A stretch of 64,000 nucleotides of DNA from Candidatus Limivivens intestinipullorum (GTDB lineage Bacteria; Bacillota; Clostridia; Lachnospirales; Lachnospiraceae): NCBI GenBank assembly GCA_018711185.1, contig DVIQ01000023.1:1-64000 (forward strand). The letters are read 5' to 3'. Positions within the stretch are counted from its first letter, which is position 1, and the number at the start of each line of letters is the position of its first letter. Position numbers and translations under genes: made by a program. The notes beneath the pieces were generated by a model. It did no database searches, was not told the origin of the DNA, and was given only the letters and a program-made list of their open reading frames with translations. Positions 12,273-27,210 of this stretch are shown here, one piece after another.

Positions 12273-13391
12273 TCAGGGGATCATCCTGGCCGGGTCCCCT
12301 GATGGGATTCCCCATTTCCGGGCCAGACGCAGCAGCTCTCTGTTTCTCTGATTCATGGTGCCAAAGCGCTCCAGACAGCAGCAGACCCGGCCGCATTCCT
12401 TCATAAGCCTTCGGGCGTGTTCAAAGGCCTCCTCGCTTATGGGCTCAAAGGCCTCCTCCGCCACAACCCGGCTTGCCAGAGCCCTGGCCACTTCGTAATC
12501 CACATCATTTTTATGGAGAACCCCCGCCGCGAAGGGCATTCCTTTTCTCTGCAGCCTGCGGAAAACCGAGACCCCCGTCCCTCCGCCGGCAATGACAAAA
12601 AGGCGGGGCTTTCCAGGAACCGCCTCCATTTCCAAACAGCCGAAATCCGCGTTGTAGCTTCCGCTCGTCACCTCATACAGCTCATGAATATAGTCCGAAG
12701 CAAAGATCTCCTCCGGCGTCCCGTATTTCGCGATGTATTCTCCTTTTACGCACACCACCAAGTCCGATACCTTCTGGGCCAGATCCAGTTCATGGAGTGA
12801 CATGATCACAGCCACATTTCCGTCCGCCACCATACGCTTCAGAATCGTCAGAAGCTCCAGCTTGTGCTTAATGTCCAGAAACGAGGTGGGCTCATCCAGG
12901 ACAATGATTTCCGGCTCCTGGCAGATAGCCCTGGCGAGAAGGATTCTCTGGCGCTGCCCATCGCTGACAGCCTGGAAATCCCGGTCCCAGAGATCCATGG
13001 CGTGAACCAGCTCCATTGCCTTTCGCACCTTCTCCCAGTCTTCTCCGGACAAAATCCCCAAAGCTCCCGTGTAGGGATACCGGCCGGTGGCCACCATCTC
13101 CGCGCAGGTCATAAGCTCCGGCCGTATGCGCTCCGTAAGCACCACCGCCATCCGGGACGCCACCTCCTTATTGCCCATGTCCGGCATATTCCGGCCGTCC
13201 AGATAGACAGTCCCCCCGATGAGCCGAAGCTGCCGGGTAATGCTTTTCAGGATTGTGGATTTTCCGGCTCCGTTGGGTCCGATCAGCGTCAGGATTTCCC
13301 CCTTCCGGACCTGAATCTCAATCTCCTTAATCAAAGGCTTTCCGCCGTACCCCACGGTCATTTTTTCCGTGCAGAAAAAAGAGTTTTTCAT
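12273..13391 (-). CDS. FecCD/BtuCD-type ABC transporter ATP-binding protein with about 110-aa C-terminal extension
   Basis: GPNGAGKST, VSDGQRQRILLARA, LDEPTSFLD; extension FVIAGGGTGVSVFRRLQRKGMPFAAGVLHKND. Confidence 0.92.
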   Translation of the reverse strand: MKNSFFCTEKMTVGYGGKPLIKEIEIQVRKGEILTLIGPNGAGKSTILKSITRQLRLIGGTVYLDGRNMPDMGNKEVASRMAVVLTERIRPELMTCAEMVATGRYPYTGALGILSGEDWEKVRKAMELVHAMDLWDRDFQAVSDGQRQRILLARAICQEPEIIVLDEPTSFLDIKHKLELLTILKRMVADGNVAVIMSLHELDLAQKVSDLVVCVKGEYIAKYGTPEEIFASDYIHELYEVTSGSYNADFGCLEMEAVPGKPRLFVIAGGGTGVSVFRRLQRKGMPFAAGVLHKNDVDYEVARALASRVVAEEAFEPISEEAFEHARRLMKECGRVCCCLERFGTMNQRNRELLRLARKWGIPSGDPARMIP

Positions 13392-14420: not shown

Positions 14421-15605
14421 CTACTGCAGTTTATACATGTACGTCAGCTCGGTAAGATTTGGGGCCTCTTCGGTGAGCATCCGGTGTATATCCACAATCA
14501 TGGTTCCGATCCCCGTGGTTTCCTGGAACATATTCTTCTGGGTACACCAGACGTTTCCTTCCTTTACCGCCTTAAAGTCCGCCAGAAGGGCGCTCTTGTC
14601 CAGAAGCTGATCGATGGTCTGCAGTTCTCCGTCGATGGTGCTGTTATAAATAATATAGTCCGCGTCCCTGGCTTTTGCGTAAAACTGCTCCATCTCCATA
14701 TTCATGGTGGACATGGCGTTTTCCTCTCCGCCCAAATCCTGGAATATATAGTTTCCCCCCGCCAGCTCGATCATCTTTGACACGTAATCCCCGGATTTCC
14801 GGACATTGGCGTAGCCAACGCTGGTGATATAGAAAAACGCCACGGTTTTCCCGGTGTTCTCCTGGGATTCCACACTTTCCAGCATGGCCTGCTGCTCTTG
14901 GAATTTCTCTTCCGCCAGTTCCTCTTTCCCCAGAAGGACGCCGTACAGCTTCATCCACTCCACCCGGCCCAGGGGATGGGACTCGTAGCTGGAACGTTCC
15001 ACCAGAACCGGGATTCCAAAGCTCTCCAGGGTTTCCTGCACCTCCGGGGTATGGTTGATCATGGTGGACTCCACCGCCAGCCCGCAGTTTTCCGAGAGAA
15101 TCAATTCATAGTCCGGCGCGCTGTATTTTCCCGCGTAGACGATGCTTCCTTCCTCCATGGCCTCCCTTGCCGCGTCCACATACCAGTTTTCCGCGGAGGT
15201 GCCTGAAAGCCGGATGCTGTCCAGCCCGTCGATGGCGGCAAACAAATCCATGGCCGAGGTGGCCACCAGATAGATATTTTCTATGGGCTGCCGCAGTACG
15301 GCGATATCCCCGTCCAGATCCTCCGGGGCTTCCGCCCCTTCGGGAACCACCAGGAACCGGTCCGTGCCGCCAATGGTAATCAGCGCGAAGCCGCCCTCAT
15401 AATAGTCCACGGAAAACTGCTCCGCGTAGCTTAACTCCATGCTTCCCTCATAAGTAAGCCCCGGCAGGGCGGCAGCCTCCGTCCCGACATTCTCGGCAGC
15501 CGCGGTCCTGCTTTCCACCGCACTGGCGTTCCGGCTTATCCCGCCCAGAATAAAGAAGCACAGAGCGCAAAGCAGCAGCCGCTTTTTCCATTTTTGTCCG
15601 ATCAA
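14421..15605 (-). CDS. ABC transporter substrate-binding protein (BtuF/FepB-like)
   Basis: Signal peptide; NCGLAVESTMINHTPEVQETLESFGIPVLVERSSYESHPLGRVEWMKLYGVLLG. Confidence 0.88.
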   Translation of the reverse strand: MIGQKWKKRLLLCALCFFILGGISRNASAVESRTAAAENVGTEAAALPGLTYEGSMELSYAEQFSVDYYEGGFALITIGGTDRFLVVPEGAEAPEDLDGDIAVLRQPIENIYLVATSAMDLFAAIDGLDSIRLSGTSAENWYVDAAREAMEEGSIVYAGKYSAPDYELILSENCGLAVESTMINHTPEVQETLESFGIPVLVERSSYESHPLGRVEWMKLYGVLLGKEELAEEKFQEQQAMLESVESQENTGKTVAFFYITSVGYANVRKSGDYVSKMIELAGGNYIFQDLGGEENAMSTMNMEMEQFYAKARDADYIIYNSTIDGELQTIDQLLDKSALLADFKAVKEGNVWCTQKNMFQETTGIGTMIVDIHRMLTEEAPNLTELTYMYKLQ

Positions 15606-16582
15606 TTTTCAGCCTCCTGTATGGATTCCGAGTCAAAAAGCAAAGTGTAGGAAATCTCGTAAGGCTGGCTCATGGCCACCGTATCCGCGATCACCTGCTG
15701 TTCCCTGTCCAAAACCGTCAGAGGAATCGAAAAAGCGGAATTTCCCTCGGCGTTTGTCCGCTCGTATTTCACATCGTCCACAATCATATAGTCATAATAC
15801 GGGCTATCGAAAACAATATCCACCGTATACTCTCCGTCCTTTACCGTCAGCGCCGCCGGCGATTCCACCGTTGTTCGCCCGGAGCCGCCGGCCAGCGTGA
15901 CTTCAATCGTATAATCGCCGTTCGCGAGGCCCAGCTCCCCGGCCGTCTTATAGCTTCCCTCTTTCATCGCATCCAAAGGAAGACTGGACGCTTCAAAGAC
16001 CAAGGTCCGGTCATACCATTTTTCTTTTCGTCTGCTCCACGCCGCACAGTCGATCCCCATATCCAAGGCCTCCACCGGCACCTGGTAGGTCTGCTGTCCC
16101 TCCTCGTTTTCCACAAAAGAGATATATTCATCCTCGGATGCCTGAACGGCTTCCTCTCCGGTACCCATAAACAGCCGCGTATATCCGTCCCCCCCAAGGG
16201 TTATTACGGCCGTCATTTCGCCGTCCTCCACAGTGAGCTCGCAGGCCGTAATGTTAAACATCGAAGAGCTGGAACGCACCTGGATCTCATAGGTCCCGTC
16301 GATCAGCTGATCGCCGTAGACCGGCGTCATGTCCTCGTCCACCACGTCCTGGGCCGGCGCCATCTCATCCGCCGACGCCACCTGCGCGCTTCCGTCTTCT
16401 TCGCCTGCCCCTTGCTCCGTGTCCGTTTCCGGTTTCTCTGTATCCGCTTCCGTTTCCCGTAAAGTCTCGTCCGCGCCGGTTTCCGCGGCGCTTGCCGCCT
16501 CTGCCGCGGTTCCCGGCTTCGCTCCTCCAAATGCAATTCCCACACTGAATAATGCTGCTGCAATTAAAAATCTTCTCTTCAT
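15602..16582 (-). CDS. Secreted protein with acidic linker and two related domains, uptake-operon associated
   Basis: Signal peptide MKRRFLIAAALFSVGIAFGGAKPGTAAEAA; domain 1 DGTYEIQVRSSSSMFNI..., domain 2 NGDYTIEVTLAGGSGRTTV...; overlaps the SBP gene by 4 nt. Confidence 0.8.
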   Translation of the reverse strand: MKRRFLIAAALFSVGIAFGGAKPGTAAEAASAAETGADETLRETEADTEKPETDTEQGAGEEDGSAQVASADEMAPAQDVVDEDMTPVYGDQLIDGTYEIQVRSSSSMFNITACELTVEDGEMTAVITLGGDGYTRLFMGTGEEAVQASEDEYISFVENEEGQQTYQVPVEALDMGIDCAAWSRRKEKWYDRTLVFEASSLPLDAMKEGSYKTAGELGLANGDYTIEVTLAGGSGRTTVESPAALTVKDGEYTVDIVFDSPYYDYMIVDDVKYERTNAEGNSAFSIPLTVLDREQQVIADTVAMSQPYEISYTLLFDSESIQEAEN

Positions 16583-16686
16583 TTTTACGCACCTGCGGGA
16601 ATGCCACTCGCGCTTCCTCCCCTCCCGCACGGAGGGCAGGCTGCCAGACATTCCCGCATTCCTTTCTCTGGCTGTGTCTTTGGTTT

Positions 16687-17664
16687 TTATTCGCTCAGAC
16701 TGTCAATGGCCGCCTGGGTATGCTCCACAAAGATCTGCTGGATTCCATCCAGCTCGCCAAGTCCCTGAACCAGACACGTAACCTCATATCCGGCGTTGGT
16801 AAACTCGGTTTTCCAGGAGCCCTCCTCGTCTCCGGCCATATCGTTATTCGCGTGATCCCCCGCGACAATCATCAGCGGAGCCAGGACTGCTTTGGTGTAT
16901 TCGCCTTCTCCCACCGCTGCCAGTACATCCTCAAGAGTGGGCTCTGCTTCTACCGTACCCACGAAGTAGTTCTCATAGCCGGCTTCCGTAAGTTTCTCCT
17001 GCATCGCGGCGTAAACGCTGTTGGATTCCGCCTCGGTGCCGTGTCCCATAAAGCAGATGGCCGTTTCCCCGTCATCGTAGTCTGCAGTAGCTTCTGTAAT
17101 TGCCTGGATAACCGCTTCATAATCCGCGTCGCTGGTAAGCAGGGGCTCTCCCATCGCCACCGCGTCAAACTGATCCGCGTACTGGGCAACCTCTTCCACC
17201 ACGTCTGTATATTCCAGACCGTTCATCAAATGCGTCGGCTGAACAATCAGCGTCTTCACGCCGTCTTCCACCGCCCGGTCCAGGGCCTTCTGCACATTGT
17301 CAATGTCCAGGCCGTCGCGCTCCGCCAGCTTGTCAATAATGATCTGGCTTGTGAACGCTCTTCTCACATCATAGTCCGGATAGGCCTCGGCAATCGCCTC
17401 CTCGATGGCGCCAATGGTAAGGTCTCTGCTGTCATTATAGCTTGTGCCAAAGCTCACCACCAGAATCGCCTGATCCTTCGGAGCTTCCTTTTCCCCGGCA
17501 TCCGCTTCTGTCTCTGCTGCACCCGTTTCTGTCACAGCTTCCGCCTCCGCTGCATCCGTTTCTGTCACAGCCTCTGTCTCCTCCGCGAAGCATCCCATGC
17601 TTCCCAGCACCATAGCTGCCGCAGCCGTTCCGGCGATCAGGGTTCTCAATACGTTTCTCTTCAT
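16687..17664 (-). CDS. cbiK: Exported sirohydrochlorin cobaltochelatase (CbiK) family protein
   Basis: Signal peptide then ILVVSFGTSYNDSRDLTIGAIEEAI, QPTHLMNGLEY, ICFMGHGTEAESN (conserved chelatase histidines). Confidence 0.9.
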   Translation of the reverse strand: MKRNVLRTLIAGTAAAAMVLGSMGCFAEETEAVTETDAAEAEAVTETGAAETEADAGEKEAPKDQAILVVSFGTSYNDSRDLTIGAIEEAIAEAYPDYDVRRAFTSQIIIDKLAERDGLDIDNVQKALDRAVEDGVKTLIVQPTHLMNGLEYTDVVEEVAQYADQFDAVAMGEPLLTSDADYEAVIQAITEATADYDDGETAICFMGHGTEAESNSVYAAMQEKLTEAGYENYFVGTVEAEPTLEDVLAAVGEGEYTKAVLAPLMIVAGDHANNDMAGDEEGSWKTEFTNAGYEVTCLVQGLGELDGIQQIFVEHTQAAIDSLSE

Positions 17665-17853
17665 GTCTTTTCCTCCTATCCAGGGAAAGCCGCTCACTGC
17701 CAGGCTTTCGCGCCTGGTCAGCCGGCCCTGCCCTCTGATGCCTCTATTTTTGTTTTTACATCAGCAAAGCCATTGTACAGAAGAAGGAGACGCCCCGCGG
17801 CGACAGCCAAGGGATGTGCGGACACAGCCCGCCGGGTACAGTGCCCGCGGGCA

Positions 17854-17944: not shown

Positions 17945-18140
17945 TCGTGGCCTGGAATCCTACTTCCGTACCAGCACCAGGCAGGTCTCCTGACTTGCAG
18001 ATCAGCGCGCGGAACCGCCTTCCCGGTTTCCCAGTGACATTCTGGTTCCCGCTCCCTGCTTACAGTGACGAGATCGTACAGGACTTGCACCTGTTTCCCT
18101 TTTCAACAGAACGCGTATGCATTCTGTCACCTGATGCTCT
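17945..18140 (-). ncRNA. Cobalamin riboswitch
   Basis: Minus strand AAAAGGGAAACAGGTGCAAGTCCTGTACG...GTCACTGTAAGC...CCAGAATGTCACTGGG...GCAAGTCAGGAGACCTGCCTGG. Confidence 0.92.
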
Positions 18141-18158
18141 ATTCAATTATTTATCGTA

Positions 18159-18193: not shown

Positions 18194-19186
18194 CTAACCC
18201 GCAAAAGCGTTTTTATAAGAAACATACCCCGGCATTTCCGGGCGCACCGGTCTCGCCGCCTGGAAACATTGATACAGGGAATCCTTCAAAATCTCCTGAA
18301 GCGGGAGCTCAAATACATTCAGTGTGCCGTCACAACGGTTCGGCCCGGTATGTACGACTCCGGTGGGATCGATCCGGAAACAGCCTTCTCTAAGGAGAAT
18401 CGACCGGTTTGCCTCCGTCTCGGTCTTTGGCAGCATCGTCATAAGCAGCTCCGGGAAATCGTTCTGCATACGCTCCAGGGTCTCCTCCACATAGTCCCTC
18501 ACCACCGGGCTGAGACCCAGCCCTTCCTTTTCCGGGGACTCAGGTACGTACTCCTCGTACAGCACCACGCTGCAGCCTCTGCGATACAGCTCATTTAAAT
18601 ACGCCTTGGTAAGAATTCTCCGGTAGTTATAATGGGTAACGCATATGCTGACGCCGAATACAATCCTGCGCATACGGAGGAGCTCCATGCACTGCATCAG
18701 TCTGCCGTACAGGAAGGAATGCTGGGCCGTCTGGGCCACATCCATGTCCGGGCCGATTTTCAGCATAGGAACCAGATTTCGGTTCTTCACCAGGAAATCC
18801 ATATAAGAGGCATCCAAAAGACTTCCGTTCGTAACAACCGGGAAAAAGATCCTGTGATGATTCGCAGCCTTTTCGAGAATACAGCGGCGCATAAGCGGCT
18901 CCCCGCCGGATAGGAATACAATCCGGATTCCAAGGCGCTCCGCGTCAAAAAACACATCGTCCCAGTCCGCGGCTTGGAGATAGCGCTTTTCCTCCGGAAA
19001 AGCCGGCTCACTCTGATAGGACTTATGGCCATATCTTCCCGCGCTCTGCAGATTGCCATGGTTTGTTATACATGCATCCAGAAACATGGGGACATGTATG
19101 CCCTGTCCTTGCTTTTCCCTGCGAATAAGTTGGGATTCTCCCAGTAAACTGCTGACATAGTCCGCTATTCTGAATTCATCTTCCAT
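18194..19186 (-). CDS. Degenerate radical SAM family protein (cluster cysteines absent)
   Basis: ACITNHGNLQSAGRYGHKS in place of xTNxCNLxCxxCY; retains FLSGGEPLMRR and VVTNGSLLD; C-terminal SPASM-like region also cysteine-poor. Confidence 0.8.
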   Translation of the reverse strand: MEDEFRIADYVSSLLGESQLIRREKQGQGIHVPMFLDACITNHGNLQSAGRYGHKSYQSEPAFPEEKRYLQAADWDDVFFDAERLGIRIVFLSGGEPLMRRCILEKAANHHRIFFPVVTNGSLLDASYMDFLVKNRNLVPMLKIGPDMDVAQTAQHSFLYGRLMQCMELLRMRRIVFGVSICVTHYNYRRILTKAYLNELYRRGCSVVLYEEYVPESPEKEGLGLSPVVRDYVEETLERMQNDFPELLMTMLPKTETEANRSILLREGCFRIDPTGVVHTGPNRCDGTLNVFELPLQEILKDSLYQCFQAARPVRPEMPGYVSYKNAFAG

Positions 19187-19386
19187 AGCCCGCCTCCTTC
19201 TCCCGAAAGCTTGTAGCGCATCATTATCTTTCTGATTTTACGCGGCTTCTGCTAAGCCACATTGTTACCTTTTTCACTAGTATAGCATTTCAATCCTTTG
19301 ATTTCAATACGATACTCATCAAATTTTCCGCATATTCCTTAAATATTTCTAAATATTCTGCCCTGATAAAATAGTGATAATTATTT

Positions 19387-19947
19387 TCACAATATCCCCA
19401 AATGCTCCAGGAGGATCCGTGTCCCAATCAGAATCAGAATAATGCCTCCCACCAGCTCAGCCCGGGATTTATATCGTATTCCGAAAACATTTCCCACTTT
19501 TACGCCGCAGGCGGAACAGACAAAGGTAATCACGCCAATAAACAGCACTGCCGGCAGGATCTGTACCTGAAGGAAGGCCAGCGTAATCCCTACGGCCAGG
19601 GCATCAATGCTGGTGGCTATCGCCAGCACCAGCATGGTCTTGACGTCCAAAGACGGATCCGCGGCTTCCTCCTCCTTTGAAAACGCCTCCCGGATCATGT
19701 TCGCGCCGATCAGCCCCAGAAGGATAAACGCGACCCAATGATCCACAGAGGTAATCCGGCTGCTGAACCGGTCTCCGAGAAAATAGCCGATCAGAGGCAT
19801 CAGAGCCTGAAAGACGCCAAACCAGAGTCCTACCAGCCCGCAGTTTTTCGCCGTGATTTTCGGCATTGCAAGTCCCTTGCAAACGGCCACCGCAAAGGCG
19901 TCCATGGACAGGCCGACTGCCAGTGTGAATAATCCAAAAAGTGTCAT
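19387..19947 (-). CDS. mntP: Manganese efflux pump MntP
   Basis: [25 protein letters not shown]...[19 protein letters not shown]. Confidence 0.95.
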
Positions 19948-20094: not shown

Positions 20095-20141
20095 TCAAAC
20101 AAAAAACTCATGGAGCTGGGGACGATCCCCGGTTCCATGAG
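20095..20141 (-). terminator. Expression-platform terminator of the Mn riboswitch
   Basis: ACTCATGGAACCGGGGATCGTCCCCAGCTCCATGAGTTTTTT. Confidence 0.9.
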
Positions 20142-20222
20142 TCTCATTATTTCAGACATAGCCAGATTTTCACCATTATGTTGACCATGCCGCAGTGTTT
20201 GCTGCCAACTACTCCCTCACGT
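20108..20222 (-). ncRNA. yybP-ykoY (Mn2+) riboswitch upstream of mntP
   Basis: Minus strand GGGAGTAG...GGTCAACA...GGTGAAAATCTGGCTATGTCTGAAATAATGAGACTC, followed by terminator and mntP. Confidence 0.8.
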
Positions 20223-26153: not shown

Positions 26154-26867
26154 TTACTGATTTTTATTGATGATCTTGGTTTCCCAGGTACCGGAAGCAA
26201 TGTCAATGAAGCGGACAAACAGAGACACCTTATTGTCCTCGTTCAGGCTGTTCCAGAGCATCTGCGCGAAGCTTTCCATATCGTCCGGAATGGCCACAGG
26301 CTTCGGCTCTCCTTCAAAGCTGGGCAGCGGATTGCCGTCGTGCTTATAGGTGTGGATGAAGCGTCCCTGGCCCGGCAGGCAGTTCTCGTAGCAGAAGGTG
26401 TAGCGCAGGCAGTTGTCCGGGTTTCCGTTGTCGCTTTTTAAAATCGAAAGGGCATAGTCGAAATGTCCGTTCTCCACGTTCAGCACGCCGGAAATCCGGG
26501 GCGTATAGGCAGGGCCGTCCGGCTCAAACTCCCGGCTGCGCAGAGACTGCTCAAAGGTCAGTCCCTTCTCCATGCCCTCGTAAATGGTATCGGTCTGGTC
26601 GCCGTTGGTAACAATGGTTTTGTTTCCCAGCACACGCACCGGCGCGTAAATAATCAGGCTGGGATCCACCAGCTTGGAAGGATCAAAGGCCTCTGTGCGG
26701 ATGCCCTGTCCCTCCTCCGCGAAAATGCGGTTCCGGCTGTTTTCACTTCTTCCCATAATGAAGTACGCCGTCACTGCCTTTGTCCCGTCCGCGGATCGCC
26801 CGATCACGATGCCCCTGCCGGGATACGCGTTTTCCTTCAGTTCCTTTTCCAAAGATAACAGTTCCAT
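26154..26867 (-). CDS. purO: Archaeal-type IMP cyclohydrolase (PurO-like)
   Basis: PGRGIVIGRSADGTKAVTAYFIMGRSENSRNR; adjacent to stand-alone AICAR transformylase; start corrected from the longer ORF. Confidence 0.88.
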   Translation of the reverse strand: MELLSLEKELKENAYPGRGIVIGRSADGTKAVTAYFIMGRSENSRNRIFAEEGQGIRTEAFDPSKLVDPSLIIYAPVRVLGNKTIVTNGDQTDTIYEGMEKGLTFEQSLRSREFEPDGPAYTPRISGVLNVENGHFDYALSILKSDNGNPDNCLRYTFCYENCLPGQGRFIHTYKHDGNPLPSFEGEPKPVAIPDDMESFAQMLWNSLNEDNKVSLFVRFIDIASGTWETKIINKNQ

Positions 26868-26914
26868 AAATACGCTCCTTTTCTTGTGGATGCTGCCTGT
26901 TTGGGCCTTTACAG

Positions 26915-27006
26915 CAAAAAAAGGCCCCTTCCAAGCAGAAATGCCCAGACGGTCGGCCTCTTCCATTATACTTCCTGTGGTCAATTCCACTTCCGTCAGT
27001 CGTATA
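26915..27006 (-). ncRNA. ZTP (pfl) riboswitch upstream of purO-purH
   Basis: Minus strand TATACGACTGACGGAAGTGGAATTGACCACAGGAAGTATAA...GGCCGACCGTCTGGGCA followed by GGGGCCTTTTTTT. Confidence 0.8.
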
Positions 27007-27071
27007 ACTAAACTAACCATAGCATTAAATTTCCGGGAAGTCAAGCACGTTTTTCTAACGTTAGAATCCGT

Positions 27072-27210
27072 CATAACCGTTCAGCCCAGGTCTGCGCACC
27101 TGCTGCGCGGACCGTAAGAACGTGATTCAGGAGTGCGAAAATCCCATCGCCGCAGGCGATTTTAAATGGATTTTCGCACGTACGGTTCAGCCTTGCTGAA
27201 CCGTACACCT
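27072..27210. repeat. Dispersed palindromic repeat family 1, long composite copy
   Basis: AACCGTTCAGCCCAGGTCTGCGCACCTGCTGCGCGGACCGTAAGAACGTGATTCAGGAGTGCGAAAATCCCATCGCCGCAGGCGATTTT...GGATTTTCGCACGTACGGTTCAGCCTTGCTGAACCGTA. Confidence 0.9.

Follow-up and report, generated by a model that had tools for sequence, protein, structure and literature searches.

The window considered in this study, the whole stretch of 64,000 nt analysed from contig DVIQ01000023.1 of Candidatus Limivivens intestinipullorum, carries a gene whose product is homologous to radical SAM/twitch enzymes and has lost every cysteine ligand of their clusters, together with most of the SAM pocket. I consider it likely that the gene encodes a radical-SAM pseudoenzyme restricted to its genus and retained for a binding or scaffolding role. 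This reading draws on the cysteine loss shared with a second genome, purifying selection on the gene, a promoter that has been kept and a predicted folded barrel. An earlier note, made from the DNA sequence, had proposed either a pseudoenzyme that binds or regulates something or a recently dead gene, and the same four lines of evidence support the first of these. The working definition of a pseudoenzyme used here, shared loss of catalytic residues combined with purifying selection, describes what was found in two genomes (omega 0.19). The features discussed below are collected in Table 1.

Table 1. Positions within the window of the putative pseudoenzyme gene, of notable regions of its product and of adjacent features.
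Feature	Position	Strand	Remarks
CDS, probable radical-SAM-fold pseudoenzyme, 330 aa	18194..19186 (including stop codon)	-	Intact ORF; sub-threshold Pfam Radical_SAM match; orthologs in two congeners
Former [4Fe-4S] loop, residues 44-51	19034..19057	-	G44, S48, R51 versus C in 94/94 relatives
Retained GGEP, residues 94-97	18896..18907	-	No variation across the family or among the three genus members
Lost SAM ribose/carboxylate region (presumed), residues 143-158	18713..18760	-	Family S-x-E-G ... TD-x-RRG-x-G; nine conserved columns changed
Former auxiliary-cluster (twitch/SPASM-like) region, residues 252-288	18323..18433	-	Ligands C262, C281 lost
mntP, manganese efflux pump	19387..19947	-	Pfam Mntp 4.5e-54; conserved upstream neighbour
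Promoter-like site TTGAAA-17-TATACT with extended TG	19279..19307	-	Upstream of gene; same hexamers aligned in G001
Cobalamin riboswitch of separate B12 operon	17963..18149	-	Rfam RF00174, 118 bits; adjacent, judged outside the system

The open reading frame runs uninterrupted over 330 residues, with neither internal stops nor frameshifts, as had been claimed, and is preceded by a good ribosome-binding site. Alignment to relatives identifies the protein as a radical SAM/twitch homologue. The Pfam Radical_SAM profile (PF04055) matches it at 24.0 bits (E 5e-5), under the gathering score of 29.5 bits, and the match spans only profile positions 21-107, that is, it begins past the cluster motif. 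Many radical SAM/SPASM models of NCBIfam match as well, all of them weakly. Homology to the superfamily and its partial TIM-barrel fold are evident from the ortholog alignment, the AlphaFold model and the Foldseek matches taken together.

The residues of the protein were compared with a reference alignment of 94 canonical homologues, from which redundancy and the outgroup had been removed, and about 126 other relatives, a set with some redundancy to which a more distant outgroup also belongs, were inspected at the DNA level. All of the latter possess CxxxCxxC, and each of the six ligands is kept in at least 99% of the 94 non-redundant close relatives. The stretch C39-ITNHGNLQSAGRYG reads as the earlier note had quoted it, and the three [4Fe-4S] cysteines are indeed gone. 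The cysteines that the protein does have (39, 102, 166, 182, 205, 269, 285 and 307) form no alternative CxxxCxxC or cysteine triplet anywhere in its 330 residues, and no intact paralogue of the family was found in the source genome. The tail, described before as SPASM-like but devoid of the usual cysteines, is just so: S262, G281 and V322 stand in place of the three auxiliary ligands (the third, C322, falls outside the region in Table 1), which were lost together with their surroundings and are missing from both congeners as well. The observation of cysteine loss is confirmed and is stronger than the earlier note had it.

A loss that the earlier note did not mention concerns the SAM pocket beyond GGEP. 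Nine columns that are 96-100% conserved among the 94 relatives are all changed in the window protein (S143, E145, G146, T151, D152, R154, R155, G156 and G158). They make up the S-x-E-G / TD-x-RRG-x-G stretch, which covers the last part of strand 4 and residues past it and, judging from radical SAM structures in general, would contact SAM. GGEP itself, the motif for the SAM amine, is present, as is TNG at residues 119-121, both as previously claimed. Conservation among the 94 homologues reaches 95% or more in 88 columns, of which the window protein keeps 43, as compared to 40 and 50 in the orthologs of the congeners G001 and G002, respectively. Those kept by the window protein include P33, N45, Y52, G86, GGEP, TNG, RN 136-137, P140 and N187.

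The canonical homologues (L055 and its relatives) belong to a radical SAM/twitch family that is uncharacterised and occurs in Lachnospiraceae-like genomes, with the motif FPGDEKSSGGC-IAAGRGFFHINSHGGAEPC. Roughly one in five of the genomes sampled from the family has such a homologue, in one copy. They are homologous to the window protein over nearly its full length, at 28-34% identity, and the barrel, GGEP and TNG are alike. The L055-type members, however, retain the SxEG/TDxRRG SAM region and the cysteines of both kinds, three for the cluster and three auxiliary ones, none of which the window protein has.

Homologues were sought in whole genomes, and orthologs are present in both other members of the genus that were examined. 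The ortholog of G001, 45% identical to the window protein, is encoded by an intact reading frame and has lost the same cysteines as well as the SAM pocket. That of G002 (L052:9618-10580), 34% identical, has lost the three auxiliary cysteines but retains CxxxCxxC (in CNLNCPGC), E145, R154 and G156, and is possibly a one-cluster intermediate. The question posed in the earlier note, whether orthologs share the G/S/R substitutions, has a mixed answer: the same cysteines are absent from G001, but the replacements there are S, G and S, and G002 keeps the motif. The same losses in an independent genome rule out the notion that a sequencing or assembly error removed the cysteines. That explanation, for which no supporting evidence was found, would also have to account for six cysteines, three of the cluster and three auxiliary, and nine residues of the SAM pocket all changed with no frameshift, and its probability is negligible.

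In a phylogenetic tree the three genus members form one clade (support 98/93), with the window and G001 proteins as sisters (100/99) on long branches. A profile built from the three gives genus members 568-573 bits and everything else at most 259 bits, among 395 relatives and 392 genomes of the order; in neither of those sets did it find further cluster-less relatives. There were none in viral contigs, and a search of genome_contigs returned only one distant match, of 49 residues. The known cluster-less members are two, so the breadth of the phenomenon is thin.

Given the state of G002 and the three-member clade, the simplest history is one in which the auxiliary cluster was lost first, and the sequences suggest a stepwise loss of that kind, the order resting on three long-branched sequences. 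The ancestor would have been a two-cluster radical SAM/twitch enzyme present in single copy. Its auxiliary cluster would have disappeared in the ancestor of the genus, a state retained by G002, and the SAM-cleaving cluster along with most of the SAM pocket would have followed in the lineage leading to the source species and G001.

Selection on the gene was assessed by pairwise codon maximum likelihood. The omega between the window and G001 genes is 0.188, and omega = 1 is rejected (2dlnL 73, p 1e-17); the value is an average since the two split and may include selection predating the cysteine loss. Counting methods (NG86/YN00) were saturated, and maximum likelihood estimates for more distant pairs, which lay at the boundary, were left out. 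The divergence of the pair (t 2.88) is the same as that of the neighbouring mntP, and amounts to 0.41/0.32/0.58 at codon positions 1/2/3. The omega of mntP is 0.052, hence the window/G001 gene evolves faster (0.19 vs 0.05). In neutral simulations of a single branch, 3 out of 2000 ended free of stops. Because omega is low with neutrality rejected, stop-free simulations are rare and the promoter is conserved, the gene must be regarded as constrained, more loosely than mntP.

On the likelihood estimate and the intact orthologs a recent pseudogene was rejected, and the second proposal of the earlier note is not supported. A gene in decay, belonging to an enzyme that became useless in the lineage and with its reading frame still to be broken, would account for the disappearance of all catalytic features, the eroded tail and a rate higher than in neighbouring genes and canonical homologues. 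I judge this to be unlikely, since two lineages at 45% identity both have an intact reading frame, start, promoter and synteny, neutrality is rejected, a neutral branch seldom stays open, and residues specific to the clade are conserved. Thirty-six positions are common to the window and G001 proteins yet rare in canonical members.

The structure of the window protein was predicted by AlphaFold with 17 homologues, and the canonical L055 protein was run on the same sequences as a control. The barrel is predicted with confidence, with blocks at pLDDT 86-97, while values drop below 50 in the C-terminal tail and precisely where the cluster and auxiliary ligands used to be (residues 46-62, 254-268 and 282-286). 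In the control, mean pLDDT is 87.8, the cluster loop stands at about 70, and most of the auxiliary region is at 90 or above. Identity between the window and G001 proteins reaches 67-73% at residues 31-45, 76-105 and 196-210, as compared to 13% at the former cluster loop (46-60), the least conserved segment of the core. Constraint has left the active site for the framework, as a binding or scaffold role predicts. A poorly conserved active-site loop is the opposite of what a new active site would present, and no new catalytic motif was recognised in the protein. That the barrel acquired, at its former active site, a different chemistry that needs no cluster is for these reasons improbable, even though the fold is kept and the 36 shared positions would fit such a change.

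Judging from the alignments and the model, the window protein is probably a non-catalytic binding protein. What is still under selection would be the (beta/alpha) barrel, the N-terminal helix, the GGEP and TNG turns and the outer helix face (residues 16-45, 76-105 and 196-210). The most likely role would be that of a scaffold or a sensor, binding a partner protein or the substrate of the ancestral enzyme.

The best fold matches found by Foldseek are SPASM/twitch enzymes, among them PqqE (6c8v, E 6.6e-12), SkfB (6efn, 7.1e-12) and SuiB (5v1q, 9e-12). All of them have auxiliary clusters in addition to the radical SAM cluster, and identity is just 14-16%. Viperins are also among the fold matches, and the PADLOC model for prokaryotic viperins (pVip) matches weakly (E 3e-4), but the protein attains 19.6 of the 180 bits of the NCBIfam viperin model, well under its cut-off, and lacks the cluster. 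For the canonical family, too, the viperin score does not exceed that of other radical SAM models. The radical SAM pseudoenzyme is a kind already known: NCBIfam TIGR04347, the haloarchaeal 'pseudo-SAM/SPASM protein', is a named family of such radical SAM homologues, different from the window protein in phylum and in tail. The window protein is not among its matches at E 0.01, and no protein of the genus passes its 525-bit cut-off. Nothing relevant was found in the literature on radical SAM pseudoenzymes.

The earlier note placed the gene immediately upstream of, and co-directional with, a cobalamin riboswitch, which is correct for the source genome: the riboswitch begins 45 bp past the end of the gene and is followed by cbiK, a gene for a NEAT-like protein and btuFCD. 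This proximity would suit a partner of the B12 uptake/cobalt chelation operon that shares in the control of the same region. A riboswitch cannot, however, control a gene that lies upstream of it, and the gap contains a candidate promoter for the operon (TTGCTT-17-TATAGT with extended TG, 18187-18159), read from the sequence; the operon seems to be served by a promoter of its own. In G001, the corresponding operon, at 47-78% identity, follows an unrelated gene in the interior of contig C97, unaccompanied by the pseudoenzyme gene. In G002, contig C15 holds the best CbiK homologue, and the ortholog of the pseudoenzyme gene is on C188, where it is followed by murE-like and maf genes that in the window stand beyond the B12 block. 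The block therefore intervenes in the source genome only. Nor does the operon adjoin any canonical homologue examined. With the operon elsewhere in both congeners, the implied link does not hold; a partnership is very improbable and can be set aside, and the B12 neighbour is incidental.

The B12 block has features of its own. The CbiK cobalt chelatase (15602-17697, minus strand) starts with a signal/lipoprotein-like sequence, and the secreted NEAT-like protein and btuFCD come after it, an arrangement conserved in G001; the signal-like N-terminus and the NEAT-like neighbour suggest a chelatase module that works outside the cytoplasm and is controlled by B12. A BtuD-like ATPase (12273-13391, minus strand) extends about 120 residues past the ABC domain at its C-terminus, as it does in G001 (364 aa). 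Elsewhere in the window, a ZMP/ZTP riboswitch (26936-27013, minus strand, 55 bits) lies inside the longest open reading frame called at 26154-27074, so the true start of that frame would be further downstream. Its product, beginning MELLSLEKELKENAYPGRG, reads like an IMP cyclohydrolase, and a purH-like gene comes next.

The upstream side of the pseudoenzyme gene is more constant. In all three genus members the gene is adjoined upstream by mntP in the same orientation, an adjacency absent from the earlier note and from all 17 neighbourhoods of canonical homologues. A TetR-type regulator/gene cluster occurs in 6 of the 20 family neighbourhoods examined. The spacer of G001 has kept the promoter hexamers while the remainder has diverged, and no known RNA element was found in the spacer between mntP and the gene. 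On the far side of mntP, a weak match to an sRNA family at 20098-20220 (27.7 of 56 bits) was taken as chance; the sequence at 20106-20142, between mntP and an alanyl-tRNA-editing-like gene, has a very strong stem of 17 pairs and then a T-rich sequence. As a long shot, the bare barrel may have been recruited, after its stepwise dismantling within the genus, to act together with MntP, the manganese exporter, as a regulator or chaperone linked to metal or redox state.

The cysteine motif is what identifies radical SAM proteins, and members that retain only the fold are easily missed or called dead. The intact family, the partly stripped congener and the two stripped orthologs still under selection constitute a natural series among relatives, which lets one ask what a cluster-less radical SAM barrel does and in what order an Fe-S enzyme is dismantled. 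For function, the adjacency of mntP offers a starting point. The partly stripped ortholog of G002 is the most useful feature, and the value of the case lies in a stepwise series within one genus.
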